Shown here piece by piece: positions 20,824-38,855 of a DNA stretch of 64,000 nucleotides (positions are counted from its first letter, which is position 1; the number at the start of each line of letters is the position of its first letter). The position numbers and the translations under genes are program-made. This DNA comes from Candidatus Tabaqchalia intestinavium (lineage in GTDB: Bacteria; Bacillota; Clostridia; Oscillospirales; CAJFTT01), in assembly GCA_904420005.1 (NCBI GenBank), contig CAJFTT010000042.1, positions 1 through 64,000 of the forward strand, in the 5' to 3' direction. The notes beneath the pieces were generated by a model that saw only the letters and a program-made list of their open reading frames with translations, ran no database searches and was not told where the DNA came from.

Positions 20824-21167
20824 GCGAGGAAGTCAAACGGTCGCGCGCGCCCATGCCGAAAGGCCGGCGCGTGAGGAAAGTCCGAGCTCCACAGGGCAGG
20901 AATAGCGGATAACGTCCGCCGGAGGCGACTCCAGGGAAAGTGCAACAGAGAGATACCGCCGAGCAATCGGTAAGGGTGGAAAGGCGAGGTAAGAGCTCAC
21001 CGGCCTGCGCGGAGACGCGCGGGTCCTGTAAACCCTATTCGGAGCAACACCGTTATGGGACATATGGCTTGCCCGGCCGTCCCGAGGTGGCTTGAGACCG
21101 TCAGCAATGGCGGCCCTAGATAGATGATCGTTCTCGACAGAACTCGGCTTACAGGCTTGCTCGCACC
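20824..21167 (+). ncRNA. rnpB: RNase P RNA, class A type
   Basis: The core signatures are present: GAGGAAAGTCCGAGCTCC near the 5' end, ACAGAGAGATACCGCC and GTAAGGGTGGAAAGGCGAGG in the middle, CCTGTAAACCC, and AACTCGGCTTACAG near the 3' end. The ends GCGAGGAAG and CTTGCTCGC pair as helix P1, which fixes the boundaries. The RNA is the catalytic subunit that matures tRNA 5' ends. The architecture appears to be the ancestral A type rather than the Bacillus B type. A terminator follows immediately. Confidence 0.93.
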
Positions 21168-27476: not shown

Positions 27477-30400
27477 TCATTTGGAATCGATCGTATCGAC
27501 GGACGGCACGATGTCCTCCAGCACGTCGAGCAGAATGCGCGCCGTGTCGAGCGAGGTGAAAGCAGTCACGCCGTTTTCCACTGCGCAGCGGCGGATGTAC
27601 GCGCCGTCATCGGCGTGCGAGCCGGAAAAAAGCGAACGGGTATTGATGATATAGCTGACATACCCTGCGCGAATGGATTGCAGGATCTGGTCGCTGCCCT
27701 CGCTGATTTTCCCCAGCACGCGGGTTTTGATGCCGTGCTTGCGGAGGAAAGCCGCTGTACCGGCCGTGGCCTCGATGTTGAAGCCCAGGCGGTAAAACCG
27801 CTGCACAAGCGGCAGGGCCTCCTGCTTGTCCTCGTCGGCCAGCGTGACAAGCACGGTACCGTAATCGCGCACATGAATGCCCGACGCCTGCAGCGCCTTG
27901 TACAGCGCGCGGTTGAGCCGCGTGTCGTAGCCGATGGCCTCGCCCGTGGATTTCATTTCCGGGGAGAGATAGGTGTCCATGCCGCCGAGCTTCGAGAAAG
28001 AGAAGGCCGGCGCTTTGACGTACCACCGCGGTTTCTTGCCGGCGAGGGAAAGCGCCGCGCGCTGCTCCTGCAGCGATTGCCCCAGCATGGCCCTGACCGC
28101 GATCTCCACAAGATTGCAGCCGGCTGACTTGGACAGAAACGGGACGCTGCGGGACGCGCGGGGATTGACCTCGATGATATAGACGTTCTCGTCGCTGTCT
28201 ACGATGAACTGGATATTGAACAGCCCCACGATGCCAATGCCGAGCCCCAGCTTGGTGGTGTAATCGAGGATCGTATCCCGCACTTTCTCCGACAGGCTGA
28301 AGGGAGGATAGACGCTGATGCTGTCGCCCGAATGCACGCCGGTGCGCTCGACCAGCTCCATGATGCCCGGCACGAACACTTCCTTGCCGTCGCAGATGGC
28401 GTCGACCTCCACCTCTTTGCCGGTGACATATTTGTCGACCAGTACGGGTTTGTCGACGTCGACCTCCACGGCGGTTTTCAGATAATGCCGGAGCATGGCG
28501 TCGTCCGCCACGATCTCCATCGCCCGGCCGCCGAGCACGAAGCTGGGCCGCACGAGCACCGGGTATCCGATCTCCGCCGCGACGCGCAGCCCGTCCTCCA
28601 TGGTGGTGACGGCCGCGCCGGTCGGATGGGGAATGCCGAGAGAAAGAATGAGGTTTTCAAATGCGTCGCGGTTCTCGGCCTTTTCGATGGCTTCGCACCC
28701 TGTGCCGATGATGCGCACGCCGCGCCGCGCCAGCGGCTCGGCCAGATTGACCGCGGTCTGTCCGCCGAGGGAAACGATGACGCCCAGCGGCTTTTCATGC
28801 TCGAGGACATTCATCACGCTTTCCACCGTCAGCGGCTCGAAATAAAGCTTATCAGCCTGCGTGTAATCGGTGGAGACCGTCTCGGGGTTGTTGTTGATGA
28901 CGATGGCTTCATACCCCGCCTCACGAATGGTGCGCAGCGCATGCACGGTGGAATAGTCGAATTCCACGCCCTGGCCGATGCGGATAGGGCCCGAACCGAG
29001 CACGACGATTTTCTCCCGGTCGGTCACGACGGATTCTTCTTCCGCCTCGTAGGTCGAATAGAAATACGGTACGTAGCTCTCAAATTCCCCCGCGCAGGTG
29101 TCGATCATCTTATAGGTGGGGAAGATGCCTTCGCGCCGCCGCATGGCGAACAGATCCTCCTCCTGCAGGTTCCACAGCTGCGCGAGATACTGATCGGAAA
29201 AGCCCATCTTTTTCGCCTGACGCAGCAGCGCGATATCGCCCGGCGCAGCTTCCAGCTCTTTTTCAAAATCGACGATATTCTTGATCTTGTCCAGGAAGAA
29301 CATATCAATCTGCGTGATGTCGCAGATGCGCGAATGGTCAACGCCCAGCCACATCAGCTGCGCGATGGCGTAAAGCCGGTCGTCCGTGCCCTCTTTGATG
29401 TAGTCGAGCAGTTCGTCGACCGTCATATTTTTGCGATCGAACTTCGCGGCGTGAATGTGGCAGACGCCGGTCTCCAGCGACTGGATGGCTTTGAGAATGC
29501 TTTCCTCAAATGTGCGGCCAATAGCCATCACTTCGCCCGTCGCTTTCATCTGGGTAGAGAGGGCATTGGAGCAGTTGGTGAATTTGTCGAACGGGAAGCG
29601 CGGGATTTTTGTCACGACATAATCCAGCGCCGGCTCAAAGCAGGCCGGGGTGTTGATGAGCTGGATTTCCTCCAGGCGCATGCCCACGGCGATCTTGGCC
29701 GATACGCGGGCGATGGGATAGCCGGTGGCTTTGGAAGCCAGGGCAGAGGAGCGCGAGACGCGGGGGTTGACCTCGATGACGTAATACTGGAACGACTGGG
29801 GATCCAGCGCGAACTGGACGTTGCAGCCGCCCTTGATGCGCAGCGCGCGGATGATGCGCAGCGCGCTGTCGCGCAGCATCTGGTATTCCTTATTGGTGAG
29901 GGTTTGGCTGGGCGCGACGACGACGGAGTCGCCGGTATGAATGCCGACGGGATCGACGTTCTCCATGTTGCACACGGTGATGGCGGTGTCGTTCGCGTCG
30001 CGGATGACTTCGTATTCGATCTCCTTATAGCCCTTGATGCTCTTTTCGATGAGCACCTGATGCACGGGGGAGAGCGCCAGCGCGTGTTTCATCATTTCCT
30101 TGAGCTCCGCGTCGTCATGCGCGAAGCCGCCGCCTGTGCCGCCCAGCGTGAAAGCGGGGCGCAGGATAACGGGATAGCCGATTTTCTGCGCGGCGGCCAG
30201 CGCTTCCTCCACGCTGAACGTGACTTCGGACGGGATGACCGGTTCGCCGATTTGCAGGCACAGCTCCTTGAACAGGTCGCGGTCCTCCGCCTGCTCGATG
30301 CTCTCCGCGTCGGAACCGAGCAGCTCAATCTGGCATTCGTTGAGCACGCCTTTTTTCGCCAGCTGCATCGCAAGGTTGAGGCCCGTCTGCCCGCCGAGGC

Positions 30401-30657
30401 TCGGCACGATGGCGTCCGGCCGTTCATAACGGCAGATGCGCGCGAGATATTCCAGCGTCAGCGGCTCCATATAAACCTTGTCCGCGATAGAGGTGTCCGT
30501 CATGATGGTGGCGGGATTAGAGTTGACCAGCACCACCTCGTACCCTTCCTCTTTGAGCGCCAGGCAGGCCTGGGTGCCGGCATAGTCGAATTCCGCTGCC
30601 TGGCCGATGACGATCGGCCCGGAGCCGATGACCATGATTTTGTGCAGATCCGTTCTC

Positions 30658-30665
<8 letters not shown>
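27477..30665 (-). CDS. carB: Carbamoyl-phosphate synthase large subunit
   Basis: This 1062-residue protein has the duplicated ATP-grasp structure. The first half starts [20 protein letters not shown]; the second repeats it with [20 protein letters not shown] near residue 555. The C-terminal methylglyoxal synthase-like allosteric domain (from about residue 930) is complete. It makes carbamoyl phosphate from bicarbonate, ATP and ammonia channelled from CarA, for pyrimidine and arginine synthesis. Its start overlaps the carA stop by eight bases. Confidence 0.96.
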
Positions 30666-33373
<2,708 letters not shown>

Positions 33374-33961
33374 TCAGTTATTATAGGTTTTGATAATATT
33401 TTCCGCGATCTCCCTGCGCTTGACGCAGGTGTCCATCGCGCGTTTTTCAATATAGCGGTGCGCTTCCGGCTCGCTCATTTTCATGTGTTCCATCAGCAGC
33501 AGCTTGGCGCGGTTGACCAGCCGGATTTCCTCCATTTTGCTCTGCAGCGTGGAAGCTTTGGCTTCCAGCGCCCGGATTTTCTGCCGCGTGGCAACCAGGA
33601 GCTTGACGGACTGAAAAACCATCTGCCGGTTGACCGGCTTGGACAGGGTCAACACACCATAGTCTTCCACCCGATGGCTCACGGCGTCCTGCAGCTCGGC
33701 TTTGACGAACAGGAGCACGCCGCAGCTCTGTGTCTGGGCTGTTTCCAGCGCGAACTGCACGCCGAAGTCGTCGGGCAGCGGAGAATTGATGATGAGGATA
33801 TCAAACGGCCTGTCCACCAACATCCGTCTGGCTTCCCCCACAGTGTGAACGGAGAGGATCGGAGAAAATTCCTGCGGCGGCAGAAGCTGGGTCAGCAGCG
33901 CCGTCGCTTTCTCGCCTGCAGAAACGATCAAGATGCTCATTTGACTTTTTTCCTGCATCAA
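33374..33961 (-). CDS. ANTAR-domain antitermination regulator with pseudo-receiver (NitR-like)
   Basis: This 195-residue protein has an N-terminal receiver-like fold (about 1-125), a coiled coil (RQKIRALEAKASTLQSKMEE) and a C-terminal ANTAR domain with VNRAKLLLMEHM and the RNA-contacting end EPEAHRYIEKRAMD. In the receiver the phosphorylation aspartate is replaced by asparagine 59 (FDILIINSPLP) and the acidic pocket is lost. Control should therefore come from partner binding, not phosphorylation. ANTAR proteins bind paired six-base-loop hairpins and prevent transcription termination. In clostridia a similar protein (NitR) follows glnA. Such hairpins occur in the glnA and glnN leaders here. 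A second ATG at 33940 is a possible start. Confidence 0.88.
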   Translation of the reverse strand: MMQEKSQMSILIVSAGEKATALLTQLLPPQEFSPILSVHTVGEARRMLVDRPFDILIINSPLPDDFGVQFALETAQTQSCGVLLFVKAELQDAVSHRVEDYGVLTLSKPVNRQMVFQSVKLLVATRQKIRALEAKASTLQSKMEEIRLVNRAKLLLMEHMKMSEPEAHRYIEKRAMDTCVKRREIAENIIKTYNN

Positions 33962-33997
33962 GCGGGCCTCTCCTTTCGTGCGGGGTATAGGGGAACG

Positions 33998-35188
33998 TCA
34001 CGCGAGAATATCCGGCATACAGCGGCGGATCAGCTCGCTTTGCCGGGCCAGCTGGAGCGCTTCCTCCAGCGTGGCGGGCAGCGTTTCCAGCGCCTGCGTG
34101 ACGCCGGGACCCGCGGTGAAAAGATTCAGGTCGAGCGGCTGACAGAGCGGAAGGCGTCGGCGGATGCCGTCAAGCCCCGCGTGGATCAGCAGCGCATAGG
34201 CAAGATACGGGTTGGCGGCGGGATCCGGGGAGCGCAGCTCAAAGCGCACATATTGTCCTTTGGCTGCGGGAATGCGGATCAGCTGAGAACGGTTCTCGGA
34301 GGACCAGGTGACATATTTGGGCGCTTTCTTTTCTCCCAGCCGCAGATAGGATTCCTCCGTGGGATTGAGAAACGCAGTGATTTCGCGAATATGGCAGAGG
34401 ATCCCCGCCATGAATGCGTCGGTGTCCTCTTTGCCGCGGGGGCTTTGCAGAGAAATGTTAATGTGCAGGCCGTTGCCGCTCTGCCGCTCGAGCGGCTTGG
34501 GAGAGAAGCAGGCGAAGAGGCCGTTTTGTGTGGCGATGGTTTTGACGACCGCCTGGAAGGTGACGGCGTTGTCCGCGGATGTCAGCGCGTCGCTGTAACG
34601 GAAATCGATCTCGTTCTGGCCCGGCCCTTCCTCGTGATGGGAGCTTTCCGGCTGGATCCCCATGTTTTCCAGCGTCAGGCAGATGTCGCGCCGGATGTTT
34701 TCCCCGCGGTCATCCGGCGCAATGTCCATATAGCTGGCGCTGTCAAACGGAATTTTTGTCGGGCGACCGTTCTCGTCTGTCTGGAACAAATAAAACTCAA
34801 ATTCCACGCCGAACGAGCAGGAAACCTGCAGCTTTTCCGCTTCTGCGATGGCCTGCTTGAGCAAAAAACGGCTGTCCCGGCGAAACGGCGTGCCGTCCGG
34901 GTGCCGGATGTCGCAAAACATACGAACCACGCGTCCCTGCGCGGGCCGCCAGGGAAGGACCGAAAGGGTAGAAGGGTCCGGGAAAAGAAACAGGTCGGAC
35001 TTCACTTCATCCCCGAAGCCATGGATGGCGGAAGCGTCGAAAGAGATACCATGGAGAAAGGCGCGCTCCAGCTCCGCCGGCATGATGGCGATGTTTTTCT
35101 GCTTTCCCGTGAGGTCGCAGAACGCCAAACGGATGAATTTGACGTCTTCTTCCTGGCAGTAGGTCATCACTTCGTCATAGGAATACAT
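33998..35188 (-). CDS. glnA: Glutamine synthetase type I (short form)
   Basis: This 396-residue protein has the GSI motifs FDASAIHGF, SFGVEFEFYLF, NEIDFRYSDALTSADNAVTF, NGLHINISLQS and RFELRSPDPAANPY. It makes glutamine from glutamate, ammonia and ATP. It is shorter than the usual 440 residues. Most of the shortage is near the C-terminus; the region where an adenylylated tyrosine would lie has no obvious site, as expected in Firmicutes. AAGGAAGG precedes the ATG at 35188. It is the first gene of a nine-gene run ending with dapL, and its leader carries a terminator and ANTAR-like hairpins. Confidence 0.92.
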   Translation of the reverse strand: MYSYDEVMTYCQEEDVKFIRLAFCDLTGKQKNIAIMPAELERAFLHGISFDASAIHGFGDEVKSDLFLFPDPSTLSVLPWRPAQGRVVRMFCDIRHPDGTPFRRDSRFLLKQAIAEAEKLQVSCSFGVEFEFYLFQTDENGRPTKIPFDSASYMDIAPDDRGENIRRDICLTLENMGIQPESSHHEEGPGQNEIDFRYSDALTSADNAVTFQAVVKTIATQNGLFACFSPKPLERQSGNGLHINISLQSPRGKEDTDAFMAGILCHIREITAFLNPTEESYLRLGEKKAPKYVTWSSENRSQLIRIPAAKGQYVRFELRSPDPAANPYLAYALLIHAGLDGIRRRLPLCQPLDLNLFTAGPGVTQALETLPATLEEALQLARQSELIRRCMPDILA

Positions 35189-35310: not shown

Positions 35311-35366
35311 AAAAAAAGCGTCTCATATGCCGCGAGAAGAAACACTTCTCCAAAACATATGAACGC
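35311..35366 (-). terminator. Attenuator (intrinsic terminator) in the glnA leader
   Basis: On the minus strand GCGUUCAUAUG pairs with CAUAUGAGACGC (two bases mismatched in the middle), enclosing a GAGAAG/CUUCUC hairpin. Seven U follow. It lies about 30-85 bases after the predicted start and 120 bases before glnA, so transcription must read through it to express the operon. Confidence 0.82.
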
Positions 35367-35378
35367 CATTGCCCATAT
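35336..35378 (-). promoter_or_regulatory. Dual six-base-loop hairpins, predicted ANTAR binding site
   Basis: Hairpin 1 (35378-35357) has eight pairs, AUAUGGGC with GUUCAUAU, closing loop AAUGGC. After five bases hairpin 2 (35351-35336) has GGAGA with UCUUC closing loop AGUGUU. Both loops have A at position 1 and G at position 4, the known ANTAR RNA signature. The 3' arm of hairpin 1 is also the 5' arm of the terminator, so the two are mutually exclusive. For hairpin 2 an alternative six-pair register with a five-base loop also exists. Confidence 0.65.
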
Positions 35379-35400
35379 CGAATTCCCCTATTTTCTTTTT

Positions 35401-35430
35401 ATTATATAATCTTGCACACAGGTTTGTCAA
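35401..35430 (-). promoter_or_regulatory. Sigma-A promoter of glnA and the nitrogen operon
   Basis: On the minus strand TTGACA (35430-35425) is followed after 18 bases by TATAAT (35406-35401), both perfect consensus hexamers. Transcription would begin near 35394, about 205 bases upstream of glnA. Confidence 0.85.
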
Positions 35431-35589: not shown

Positions 35590-36348
35590 ATGGGAACTAT
35601 CTGCTGCGTCAGTTTCAGCCCGACCGGAACGAGCAAAAACGTAGCATGTCAGATTGCACGGGAGTTGGAAGGCGAGAAAACCACCGTTGATCTGTGCGAA
35701 GCTCCCGCAAAAGACATCCAGTTTGGACGCAACGATCTCTGCATCTTTTCCGTGCCATGCTACGGAGGCCGGATCCCGCAGACTGCGGCGGCGAGGCTTT
35801 CCCGCCTGCACGGGGATGCGACTGCGGCGATTGTCTGCGTCACATTTGGAAACCGCGCGTTTGAGGACGCATTGCTGGAACTGGCGGATACAGTAGAGGC
35901 GCAGGGGTTTGCCGTGTTTGCCGGTGCGGCTGTCGCGGCAGAGCATACTATTATGCATATCTTTGGGCAGGGGCGCCCGGACGCGGCGGACCGGGAGGAG
36001 ATTGCGGCGTTCGCGCGTCAAGCGGCCCGAAAGCACTGCGCCGGCGACAGCGTTCGGCCCGCGTTACCGGGCAATCGTCCTTATCGGGCGTGGCACGGCG
36101 GCAGCACCCCCATTTTGGTGAAGGAAGCGACCTGCAACCACTGCGGGCTGTGCGCGCAGCGCTGTCCGGTGGACGCGATTTCGCCCGACGGCAGCAGGAC
36201 GGACGCGGGGCAGTGCATTGGCTGCATGCGCTGCATTCAGCAGTGCCCTACCGCGAGCCGATCCCTGCCGGCCGAGCATGTCGCGGCGCTGATCGCGCGG
36301 CTGGGGCCCGCGTGTGAAGGCAGGAAAGCGAATGCATTTTACTTATAA
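35590..36348 (+). CDS. EFR1-type flavodoxin/ferredoxin fusion protein
   Basis: This 252-residue protein has an N-terminal flavodoxin-like domain; the FMN phosphate loop is SFSPTGTSKNVA. The glycine-rich FSVPCYGGRIP and TFGNRAFEDAL follow. The C-terminus has two 4Fe-4S ferredoxin motifs, CNHCGLCAQRCP and CIGCMRCIQQCP. Such EFR1-family proteins are soluble electron carriers in anaerobes. Its place between glnA and glnN, upstream of glutamate synthase, suggests it could donate electrons to nitrogen assimilation, but this is only contextual. No clear terminator lies between it and the glnN promoter. Confidence 0.87.
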   Translation: MGTICCVSFSPTGTSKNVACQIARELEGEKTTVDLCEAPAKDIQFGRNDLCIFSVPCYGGRIPQTAAARLSRLHGDATAAIVCVTFGNRAFEDALLELADTVEAQGFAVFAGAAVAAEHTIMHIFGQGRPDAADREEIAAFARQAARKHCAGDSVRPALPGNRPYRAWHGGSTPILVKEATCNHCGLCAQRCPVDAISPDGSRTDAGQCIGCMRCIQQCPTASRSLPAEHVAALIARLGPACEGRKANAFYL

Positions 36349-36475: not shown

Positions 36476-36504
36476 TTGACAAACTGGCACGAAGAGAGTA
36501 TACT
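36476..36504 (+). promoter_or_regulatory. Sigma-A promoter of glnN, with a palindrome over the -10 box
   Basis: TTGACA (36476-36481) is followed after 17 bases by TATACT (36499-36504). The -10 is embedded in the perfect palindrome GAGAGTATACTCTC (36494-36507), which might be an operator. The predicted start is near 36511. Confidence 0.85.
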
Positions 36505-36512
36505 CTCAACGT

Positions 36513-36565
36513 AACAACGGCAATGACGTCGCGGTAAGAAATTTCTGCTTCGTCGTTGTTTTTTT
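36513..36565 (+). terminator. First attenuator in the glnN leader
   Basis: AACAAC and GACG on the left pair with CGUC and GUUGUU on the right, with a six-base bulge and an inner GCGG/CUGC stem, followed by seven T. It begins within a few bases of the transcription start, so unrelieved termination would give an RNA of about 55 bases. Inside it, CGGC (36518-36521), loop AAUGAC and GUCG (36528-36531) form an alternative hairpin with A at loop position 1 and G at position 4. That hairpin shares GGCAAUGRC with the glnA leader. Confidence 0.72.
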
Positions 36566-36683
36566 ATTTCCCGGACAAAGCCCGGCAGCGATCGGCGGTT
36601 TTGCCAATGGAGGCGAAAATCGCTTGGCCGGAGGAACCGGAACGGTGCGGCCGATAGTCTGGGGAAAATATTCTTTTGTGAAC

Positions 36684-36741
36684 AAGCGGCAAGGGCGTCG
36701 CGGGACAGTTGTCCCGAGGAGCCCCTGTCGCTTTATTTTTT
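36684..36741 (+). terminator. Second attenuator, immediately before the glnN ribosome binding site
   Basis: AAGCGGCAAGGG (36684-36695) pairs with CCCCTGTCGCTT (36722-36733), with an inner CGGGAC/GTCCCG hairpin, followed by TTATTTTTT. The gene's AAGGAG starts only a few bases later. An alternative hairpin, GCGGC (36686-36690) with GUCGC (36697-36701) closing loop AAGGGC, uses the terminator's left arm. This loop again has A at position 1 and G at position 4, so its formation would block the terminator. Confidence 0.75.
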
Positions 36742-36758
36742 ATCAAGGAGTTGTTTGT

Positions 36759-38855
36759 ATGAATGCGATCACAAACCTGTTTGGCACGAACGTTTTCAAC
36801 GACGCGGTGATGCGCGAGCGTCTTCCCAAGGAAACGTACCGGCAGCTGCAGCGCACAGTTAAAGAAGGCAAGCATCTGGACAATGCGGTCGCCAATGTCG
36901 TTGCCAACGCCATGAAGGATTGGGCCATCGAAAAGGGAGCGACGCATTTCACGCACTGGTTCCAGCCCATGACAGGCATCACGGCGGAAAAGCACGACAG
37001 CTTTATTACGCCGACGGACGACGGGCGCGTCATTTTGGAATTTTCCGGCAAGGAGCTGATCCAGGGAGAGCCGGACGCGTCGTCTTTCCCCTCCGGCGGC
37101 CTGCGGGCGACCTTTGAGGCCAGAGGATATACCACCTGGGATCCCACTTCTTATGCGTTCATTAAGGGGAAAACGCTGTGCATCCCGACGGCGTTTTGCT
37201 CGTACGGCGGGGAAGCGCTGGACAAGAAAACGCCGCTGCTGCGCTCGATGGAGGCCATCAATCGGCAGGCGCTGCGCGTTCTGCGCCTGTTTGGCGACAC
37301 GGCGGTGACCTCTGTCAAGACGACCGTAGGCCCTGAACAGGAATATTTCCTGGTAGAAAGGGAAATGTTTGAAAAACGCCCCGATCTGGTATTCACCGGC
37401 CGGACTCTGTTCGGCGCGCGGCCGCCCAAGGGACAGGAGCTGGACGATCATTATTTCGGCACCATCAAAACCCGCGTGGCTGAATACATGGAGGACCTCA
37501 ACGAAGAGCTGTGGAAGCTGGGCGTGCTGGCCAAGACGGAGCATAATGAAGTCGCGCCGGCGCAGCACGAGCTCGCGCCTATTTTCAGCACGACCAATAT
37601 CGCCACCGATCACAACCAGCTGACGATGGAGCTGATGCAGCGCATCGCGAAAAAGCATGGCCTGGTCTGCCTGCTGCATGAAAAGCCGTTTGCCGGCGTC
37701 AACGGCTCCGGCAAGCATAATAACTGGTCGATCTCCACCAGCACCGGCAAGAACCTGCTGGATCCGGGCGACACGCCGCGGGAGAACGCGCAATTTTTGC
37801 TGTTTTTGTGCGCGGTTATCCAGGCGGTGGATGATTACCAGGATCTGCTGCGCGTGTCGGTCGCCTCGGCGGGCAACGACCATCGCCTGGGTGCCAATGA
37901 AGCGCCGCCGGCGATCGTTTCGATCTTCCTGGGGACGGAGCTGACGGAGATTCTCGACTCCATCGAAAAGGACGAACAGTACGGCACGAAGGAAAAAGAG
38001 CTGTGGAAGGTCGGCGTACATATTCTTCCGCGCTTCCCCAAAGACACGACCGACCGCAACCGCACTTCGCCGTTTGCGTTTACAGGTAACAAATTCGAGT
38101 TCCGCATGCTGGGTTCCAGCAATTCCATTTCGGGCGCCAACATCGTGCTCAACACCGCCGTGGCGGAGAGCCTCCGGCAGTATGCCGATGAGCTGGAATC
38201 GGCGGAGGATTTCAACAAAGCGCTGCATGATCTGATCCAGCGCACCATCCGGGAACACAAGCGCATCATCTTCAACGGTAACGGCTACGATGAGGCGTGG
38301 GTGAAGGAAGCGGAGCGCCGTGGGTTGCTCAACCTCAAGACGACCCCGGAATGCCTGCCTTACTTCTGCGCGGAGAAAAATGTGCAGCTGTTCACGCAGC
38401 ATCGCGTATTTTCCGAGACGGAGATCAACGCCCGCTGCGAGATTATGCTGGAGACCTACAGCAAGATGCTCAATATCGAGGCGCTGACCATGCTGGATAT
38501 GGCCAATAAGGATCTGCTGCCGGCCTATTCGGCGTACGCCCGGCAGCTCAGCGAGGCGCTTCTTGCGAAGAAAGAGGCGGCGCCCGGCGTGGACTGCACG
38601 TACGAGGAAGAGCTGCTGCGCAAGGTTTCCGGTCTGTGCGGCGGTATGTATCAGAAAACCAAGGCGCTGGAAGCGACGCTGCTGGAGCTTGTCCATAAGG
38701 ACTGCAGCGAGCTTGAGAAGGCTCAGTATTACCGCTCGGTGGTGTTTGGCGCCATGAATGAGCTGCGCATTGTCGCCGACGAGCTGGAAAGCGTGACGGA
38801 TCGCAAATATTATCCGTATCCCACCTATGGCGATCTGCTGTTCGGCGTGCGCTGA
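36759..38855 (+). CDS. glnN: Glutamine synthetase type III
   Basis: This 698-residue protein has the GSIII length and motifs, including [70 protein letters not shown] and the late [17 protein letters not shown]. It makes glutamine like glnA, but from a structurally distinct family common in gut Clostridia and Bacteroidetes. The start at 36759 was chosen for AAGGAG nine bases upstream; an open frame extends 45 codons farther through the leader hairpins and is not coding. Two tandem attenuators precede it. It lies upstream of gltBD. Confidence 0.95.

Follow-up and report, generated by a model that had tools for sequence, protein, structure and literature searches.

Does the leader of the glnA operon control this operon through the ANTAR protein that the operon itself encodes, and does it do so with two hexaloop hairpins or with one? 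The question arose from an initial annotation of a 64,000-nucleotide stretch of DNA (the window), which had placed a two-hexaloop ANTAR target upstream of glnA. ANTAR antitermination of nitrogen and glutamine genes is already known: the ANTAR target with two hairpins goes back to Ramesh 2012 (PMC3369931), which reported that antitermination by EutV in vivo needs both hexaloops and named glutamate and glutamine synthases among the predicted targets. Walshe 2022 (PMC8934654) found that the ANTAR dimer holds a single hexaloop at any moment, took one hexaloop as the new minimal motif, considered the need for two hexaloops not fully explained, asked to what extent single hexaloops occur in nature and called for work on single-hexaloop sites. 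From the evidence below, we consider it highly probable that the glnA leader is an attenuator run by the operon's own ANTAR protein via one hexaloop hairpin near the 5' end of the transcript.

The glnA leader and its conservation in relatives

The operon is preceded by the consensus promoter that had been claimed for it, a sigma-70 promoter on the minus strand (35401-35430) with a 12/12 match (TTGACA at 35430-35425, an 18-nt spacer and TATAAT at 35406-35401), and a promoter is found at the matching position upstream of the leader in nearly all relatives. The ANTAR-type candidate antiterminator, hairpin 1 (35357-35378, minus strand), reads AUAUGGGC[AAUGGC]GUUCAUAU from 35378 to 35357, with the loop at 35370-35365. 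It overlaps an intrinsic terminator (35311-35367, minus strand), whose left arm runs from G4 of the loop onward (GGCGUUCAUAUG...), whose right arm is CAUAUGAGACGC and which ends in U7 at 35317-35311. Both structures fold as the initial annotation had proposed. The left arm of the terminator is the 3' arm of hairpin 1, so that the two folds are mutually exclusive, with energies of about -5.7 kcal/mol for hairpin 1 versus about -23 kcal/mol for the terminator. The terminator fold has a z-score of -3.3, and 0 of 200 shuffled sequences folded equally well.

In order to assess the conservation of these elements, we used 29 loci besides the window's own, obtained by whole-genome search, and 70 named contigs, together with a covariance model (R1) built on 12 leaders. 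R1 matched in 102 of the 394 genomes of the order, and also at the collected loci and in further orders of the same class. Close relatives carry RUGRGC[AAUGGC]GUUCAY in their glnA leaders, just behind the promoter, and the terminator arm there is AUGRACGY followed by U. Every one of the 64 homologous leaders has a hairpin-1 loop of the form AANG(G/A)N, with A1, A2 and G4 invariant (64/64); the loop forms are AAAGGC (36 leaders), AAUGGC (17), AACGGC (5), AAGGGC (3) and three rarer ones. In all 64 leaders the 3' arm of hairpin 1 doubles as the left arm of the terminator, and the 8-bp base helix of the terminator is kept in 96.9% of the cells of the comparison, with paired changes.

The stem of the glnA/glt leaders alone is too conserved for covariation. 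The pairs were evaluated on 42 distinct hairpins in which glnA/glt and GSIII leaders were pooled. A1, A2 and G4 are invariant in all 42, and stem pairs 1 to 3 are formed in every one of them. Pair 4 is formed in 41, where shuffled sets lead one to expect 22 (maximum 33), and pair 5 is formed in 39, against an expectation of 20 (maximum 30), a shuffling statistic that ignores relatedness; both pairs are preserved through G-C, A-U and C-G exchanges. The GSIII sites had been chosen for a C-closed A1/G4 loop and four pairs, so that pairs 1-4 are partly selected there, and the C-G closing pair, present in 42/42 hairpins, was likewise partly required by site selection. By these measures hairpin 1 is a conserved RNA structure, and in sequence both its loop and its closing pair agree with what ANTAR proteins are known to recognize (PMC3369931, PMC7496416).

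Conservation of the loop could also reflect translation, since AUG, GUG or UUG stands at that place in most glnA/glt leaders, and AUGGGCAAUGGCGUUCAU is a possible short frame in the window (Met-Gly-Asn-Gly-Val-His...) on which ribosome-mediated attenuation by a leader peptide might act. The GSIII leaders, however, carry the same hairpin without a start codon, and one leader (L063) replaces the triplet while keeping the pairing (GCGGAC[AAAGGC]GUCCGC). Codon position three (GGC, GUU) varies no more than position one, whereas the changes between AAA, AAU, AAC and AAG alter the amino acid. In most relatives the triplet lies too near the estimated transcription start for a ribosome site. We therefore rejected the leader peptide, an explanation that is hardly credible.

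A strict-stem motif scan of glnA upstream regions missed most relatives, because glnA is often an internal gene with the leader 5-7 kb upstream. The pattern ACGGCAAYGAYGTCG gave mostly coding matches in the 394 genomes, with only three leaders among them, and the pattern GGCAAYGRYGTYS matched two leaders and two coding sequences in the window's own genome. In the 64-kb window, hairpins with a C-closed A1/G4 loop are rare, with 13 on both strands taken together; only four, of the type C[AANGNN]G, precede a U-run, and all four lie within the two glutamine synthetase leaders. The loci L062, L090, L100 and L101, on spirochaete-labelled contigs, carry close relatives of the glnA-ANTAR pair, some of them with the leader, which suggests either horizontal transfer or mis-binned contigs.

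One hexaloop or two

The initial annotation had drawn a second hexaloop, GGAGA[AGUGUU]UCUUC (hairpin 2, 35336-35351, minus strand), and had taken the two hairpins together as the target of an ANTAR dimer requiring both the AAUGGC and the AGUGUU loop. The letters of hairpin 2 are indeed present 5 nt 3' of hairpin 1, and this linker falls within the known range of 5-12 nt (PMC3369931), so that the window allows both loops to be drawn. At minimum energy, however, this place folds in a different register, GAGAAG[UGUUU]CUUCUC, whose loop has five bases, and hairpin 2 as drawn is closed by an A-U and not by a C-G pair. A second A1/G4 hexaloop on a stem of four pairs is found in 3 of 51 non-redundant leaders, namely in the window, L040 and L055. 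Permutation of the loop letters gives an expectation of 2.96 for these 3 observed (p = 0.58), and second A1/G4 hexaloops are no commoner than those that carry different bases at these two positions. No second hexaloop was detected inside the GSIII attenuators of relatives (0/29).

The canonical arrangement places the partner upstream, as it is the second hairpin (P2), and not the first (P1), that overlaps the terminator there; the order proposed for the window is thus the wrong one. We found no A1/G4 hexaloop partner upstream of hairpin 1 in any of the 51 non-redundant leaders, nor in any of the 14 leaders of the wider class sample. As a positive control, loci around ANTAR genes of the phylum were scanned in which an upstream A1/G4 partner was present in 6 of 17 attenuators (Fisher p = 1e-4 versus 0/51), a contrast that is approximate since interrupted stems escape the scan, which overlooked at least one partner with a mismatch (L249). 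The control loci also include attenuators with no partner detected by the scan, and one-hairpin forms may therefore be wider than this branch. Attenuators in which no second hexaloop was detected were seen at the Firmicutes ANTAR loci L238, L248, L250, L252, L253, L256, L260 and L261; at two of these, L252 and L256, a dual-type and a single-type attenuator lie near one ANTAR gene.

The position of hairpin 1 relative to the promoter points in the same direction. A1 of the loop stands at a median distance of 14 nt from the -10 box end, which places the start of the hairpin 0-2 nt from the transcription start in most leaders, the starts being estimates from the promoter consensus. With the hexaloop at the estimated start, most relatives appear to have no room for a canonical upstream recruitment hairpin. 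The window leader belongs to a minority with a longer gap (30 nt from the -10 end to A1), and a scan of this gap revealed no hexaloop. Since the terminator-overlapping hairpin of canonical leaders is P2, hairpin 1 is, as predicted from its place in the leader, topologically a P2 lacking P1, and hairpin 2 is best read as merely the apex of the terminator and not as an ANTAR site. Thus, these leaders lack the two hairpins with a short linker that characterize a dual-hexaloop target; they have one conserved hexaloop, usually at the estimated transcript start, and control by paired hexaloops is accordingly very improbable. Against the one-hairpin reading it nevertheless counts that EutV needs both hexaloops, that the affinity of NasR, which prefers C-G-closed loops, is about 12-fold lower for a single hairpin (PMC7496416), and that hairpin 2 can be drawn at all.

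The ANTAR protein, its operon and the wider regulon

The gene right after glnA (33374-33961, minus strand) encodes an ANTAR protein, as had been claimed, and is the candidate antiterminator gene. Its ANTAR domain is intact (PF03861, E 1.5e-18; 66.8 bits versus a curated cut-off of 27.3) and matches the structures of Rv1626, EutV and AmiR; the Met equivalent to Met172 of EutV is invariant in 91 relatives. The receiver domain is degenerate and scores below the Pfam cut-off. At the phospho-acceptor position, where a response regulator has aspartate, the window protein has Asn59, and Asn is found in 79 and Asp in 7 of the 91 relatives. The receiver is thus, as judged from these residues, an AmiR-like pseudo-receiver, and with Asn at the phospho-acceptor position a kinase is unlikely to be the switch. 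Candidates for the switch would be GlnA, whose gene is the constant neighbour, or else some partner protein of the kind that acts on AmiR, and the route by which glutamine status reaches the ANTAR protein becomes a question because the phosphorylation site is absent.

The ANTAR gene is the only one in the assembly (2.13 Mb, 82% complete), and glnA lies directly before the ANTAR gene at 84 of 87 loci with a glnA match. All 49 genomes with a leader match of E <= 1e-4 carry an ANTAR gene, compared to 233 of the 394 genomes overall (Fisher p = 6e-13); as a point against the proposed mechanism, 9 of the 102 leader-positive genomes have no ANTAR gene that we could find, although their matches all have E values above 1e-4. 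Of 57 matches checked, 53 share the contig with an ANTAR gene, and in 51 leader and gene are on one strand with the leader 1.7-8.6 kb upstream, for which reason the autogenous layout is a general one. The initial proposal of an autogenous ANTAR attenuator is therefore retained with regard to this layout and given up with regard to the dual hexaloop.

Binding by the ANTAR protein is a prediction, and the leader could instead be read by a riboswitch ligand or another RNA-binding protein, or be a constitutive attenuator. A search with 4227 Rfam models at curated and lax thresholds gave no match at the window leader, and two chance matches below the threshold were all that six homologous loci yielded, so that an undescribed ligand-binding RNA is conceivable. 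The hairpin, however, falls short of the size of a metabolite aptamer, the loop bears the ANTAR signature, and the ANTAR gene that accompanies every strong match typically lies in the same operon, all of which makes another reader very improbable.

The genes glnA (33998-35188; type I glutamine synthetase, PF00120 E 5.9e-85, PF03951), ANTAR, pyrG (31739-33361; CTP synthetase, assigned by sequence, 12 nt after the ANTAR gene) and carA plus carB (27477-31788; carbamoyl-phosphate synthetase, assigned by sequence, with overlapping ends) are co-oriented on the minus strand over 27477-35188, and neighbouring genes either overlap or lie a few bases apart. They appear to form one operon for glutamine synthesis and glutamine-consuming enzymes. 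On the plus strand, a type III glutamine synthetase (GSIII; 36759-38855, PF12437 E 3e-83) is preceded by a promoter with an 11/12 match (36476-36504, TTGACA-17-TATACT) and a leader (36505-36758) with three C-closed hexaloops in series at 36522, 36606 and 36691. The first, CGGC[AAUGAC]GUCG (attenuator 36518-36565, z = -3.9), and the third, GCGGC[AAGGGC]GUCGC (attenuator 36686-36741, tail UUUAUUUUUU), overlap terminators; the second, UUUUGCC[AAUGGA]GGCGAAA (36599-36618), has no U-run terminator directly behind it. In relatives, a GSIII leader contains a single attenuator or two consecutive ones spaced by about 60-80 nt, and here too the first follows closely on the promoter; GSIII is divergent from a glt-glnA-ANTAR operon in many genomes. 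For the second GSIII gene of the window's own genome (L262, G000 C67:17500-18700, 69% identical) we noted a good promoter and a short hairpin resembling a terminator, but no hexaloop. Between the two glutamine synthetase leaders, 35590-36348 (plus strand) encodes a flavodoxin-like protein with two 4Fe-4S motifs, and elsewhere in the window an RNase P RNA of bacterial class A is found at 20825-21167 (plus strand; Rfam RF00010, 266 bits).

In other genomes, leaders precede gltB-type GOGAT, an operon for an amidotransferase/FMN/ferredoxin glutamate synthase, carAB, pyrG, a purA-like gene together with carAB, and a dapF-like gene, the names being read from the proteins and not from profile searches. 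The common theme of this putative regulon is the making and spending of glutamine. One leader with a single hexaloop, L167, stands before the diaminopimelate-epimerase-like gene, outside the glutamine theme.

Proposed mechanism and comparison with known ANTAR systems

We propose that control by a single hexaloop would work as follows. By default, the downstream arm of the strong terminator would capture the 3' arm of the weak hairpin 1, and transcription would end ahead of glnA. Upon shortage of nitrogen (glutamine), the ANTAR protein would bind the AAUGGC loop via A1, G4 and the C-G closing pair and keep hairpin 1 closed, whereupon the polymerase would read through glnA, the ANTAR gene and pyrG-carAB. 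Read-through would yield more ANTAR protein and thus a positive feedback loop, and a second hexaloop, which is not conserved, would not be needed. Protein binding, antitermination as its effect, the glutamine signal and the switching of an unphosphorylatable protein are all inferred here. A broader version, in which a whole branch of the Clostridia would control type I and type III glutamine synthetases, GOGAT, CTP synthetase and carbamoyl-phosphate synthetase by single 5'-terminal hexaloops, with an ANTAR pseudo-receiver set by the adjacent glutamine synthetase as a trigger enzyme and not by a kinase, is doubtful as a whole and offered tentatively.

What appears to be new is the conserved one-hexaloop, 5'-terminal layout, a predicted one-hairpin switch that recurs in many related gut bacteria; in a literature search of openly accessible main texts, we found no description of one-hexaloop ANTAR attenuators at transcript starts. 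The leaders constitute a large natural set without the second hairpin, which makes the two-hairpin rule directly testable, and their layout bears on the question left open by Walshe 2022. They also suggest that gut Clostridia have a nitrogen regulon of this kind, and the missing second hairpin explains why searches for dual hairpins would overlook it.

The ANTAR RNAs that Ramesh 2012 predicted for glutamate and glutamine synthase genes (Desulfotomaculum) represent the same target class and the same idea of an autogenous regulon; the search behind them demanded two hairpins, whereas the present leaders have one. In Clostridia, an ANTAR antiterminator has been tied to glutamine synthetase and GOGAT before: the portions of PMC4676874 available to us report concerted expression changes of the GS-GOGAT cluster 2030-2036 of C. 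thermocellum, propose an antiterminator role for its ANTAR protein Clo1313_2030 and cite the nitR antiterminator of C. acetobutylicum. Unlike for the present leaders, no hexaloop leader RNA is described in these portions. AmiR of Pseudomonas aeruginosa likewise has a receiver-like domain without phosphorylation, and switching by a partner protein is conceivable by analogy; here, however, no AmiC-like partner gene was seen, and the constant neighbour is glnA. The closest resemblance is with EutV and the eutP leader of Enterococcus faecalis, which share with our system the A1/G4 hexaloop, the C-G closing pair, the competition of the hairpin with an intrinsic terminator, an ANTAR gene close by and nitrogen genes downstream. 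Unlike in the EutV system, the ANTAR protein here is not phosphorylatable, and where eutP has two hexaloops, these leaders have one that is conserved and that forms at the 5' terminus of the transcript or close to it. The glnA leader thus probably works like an ANTAR antiterminator, yet with a single hairpin in place of two.
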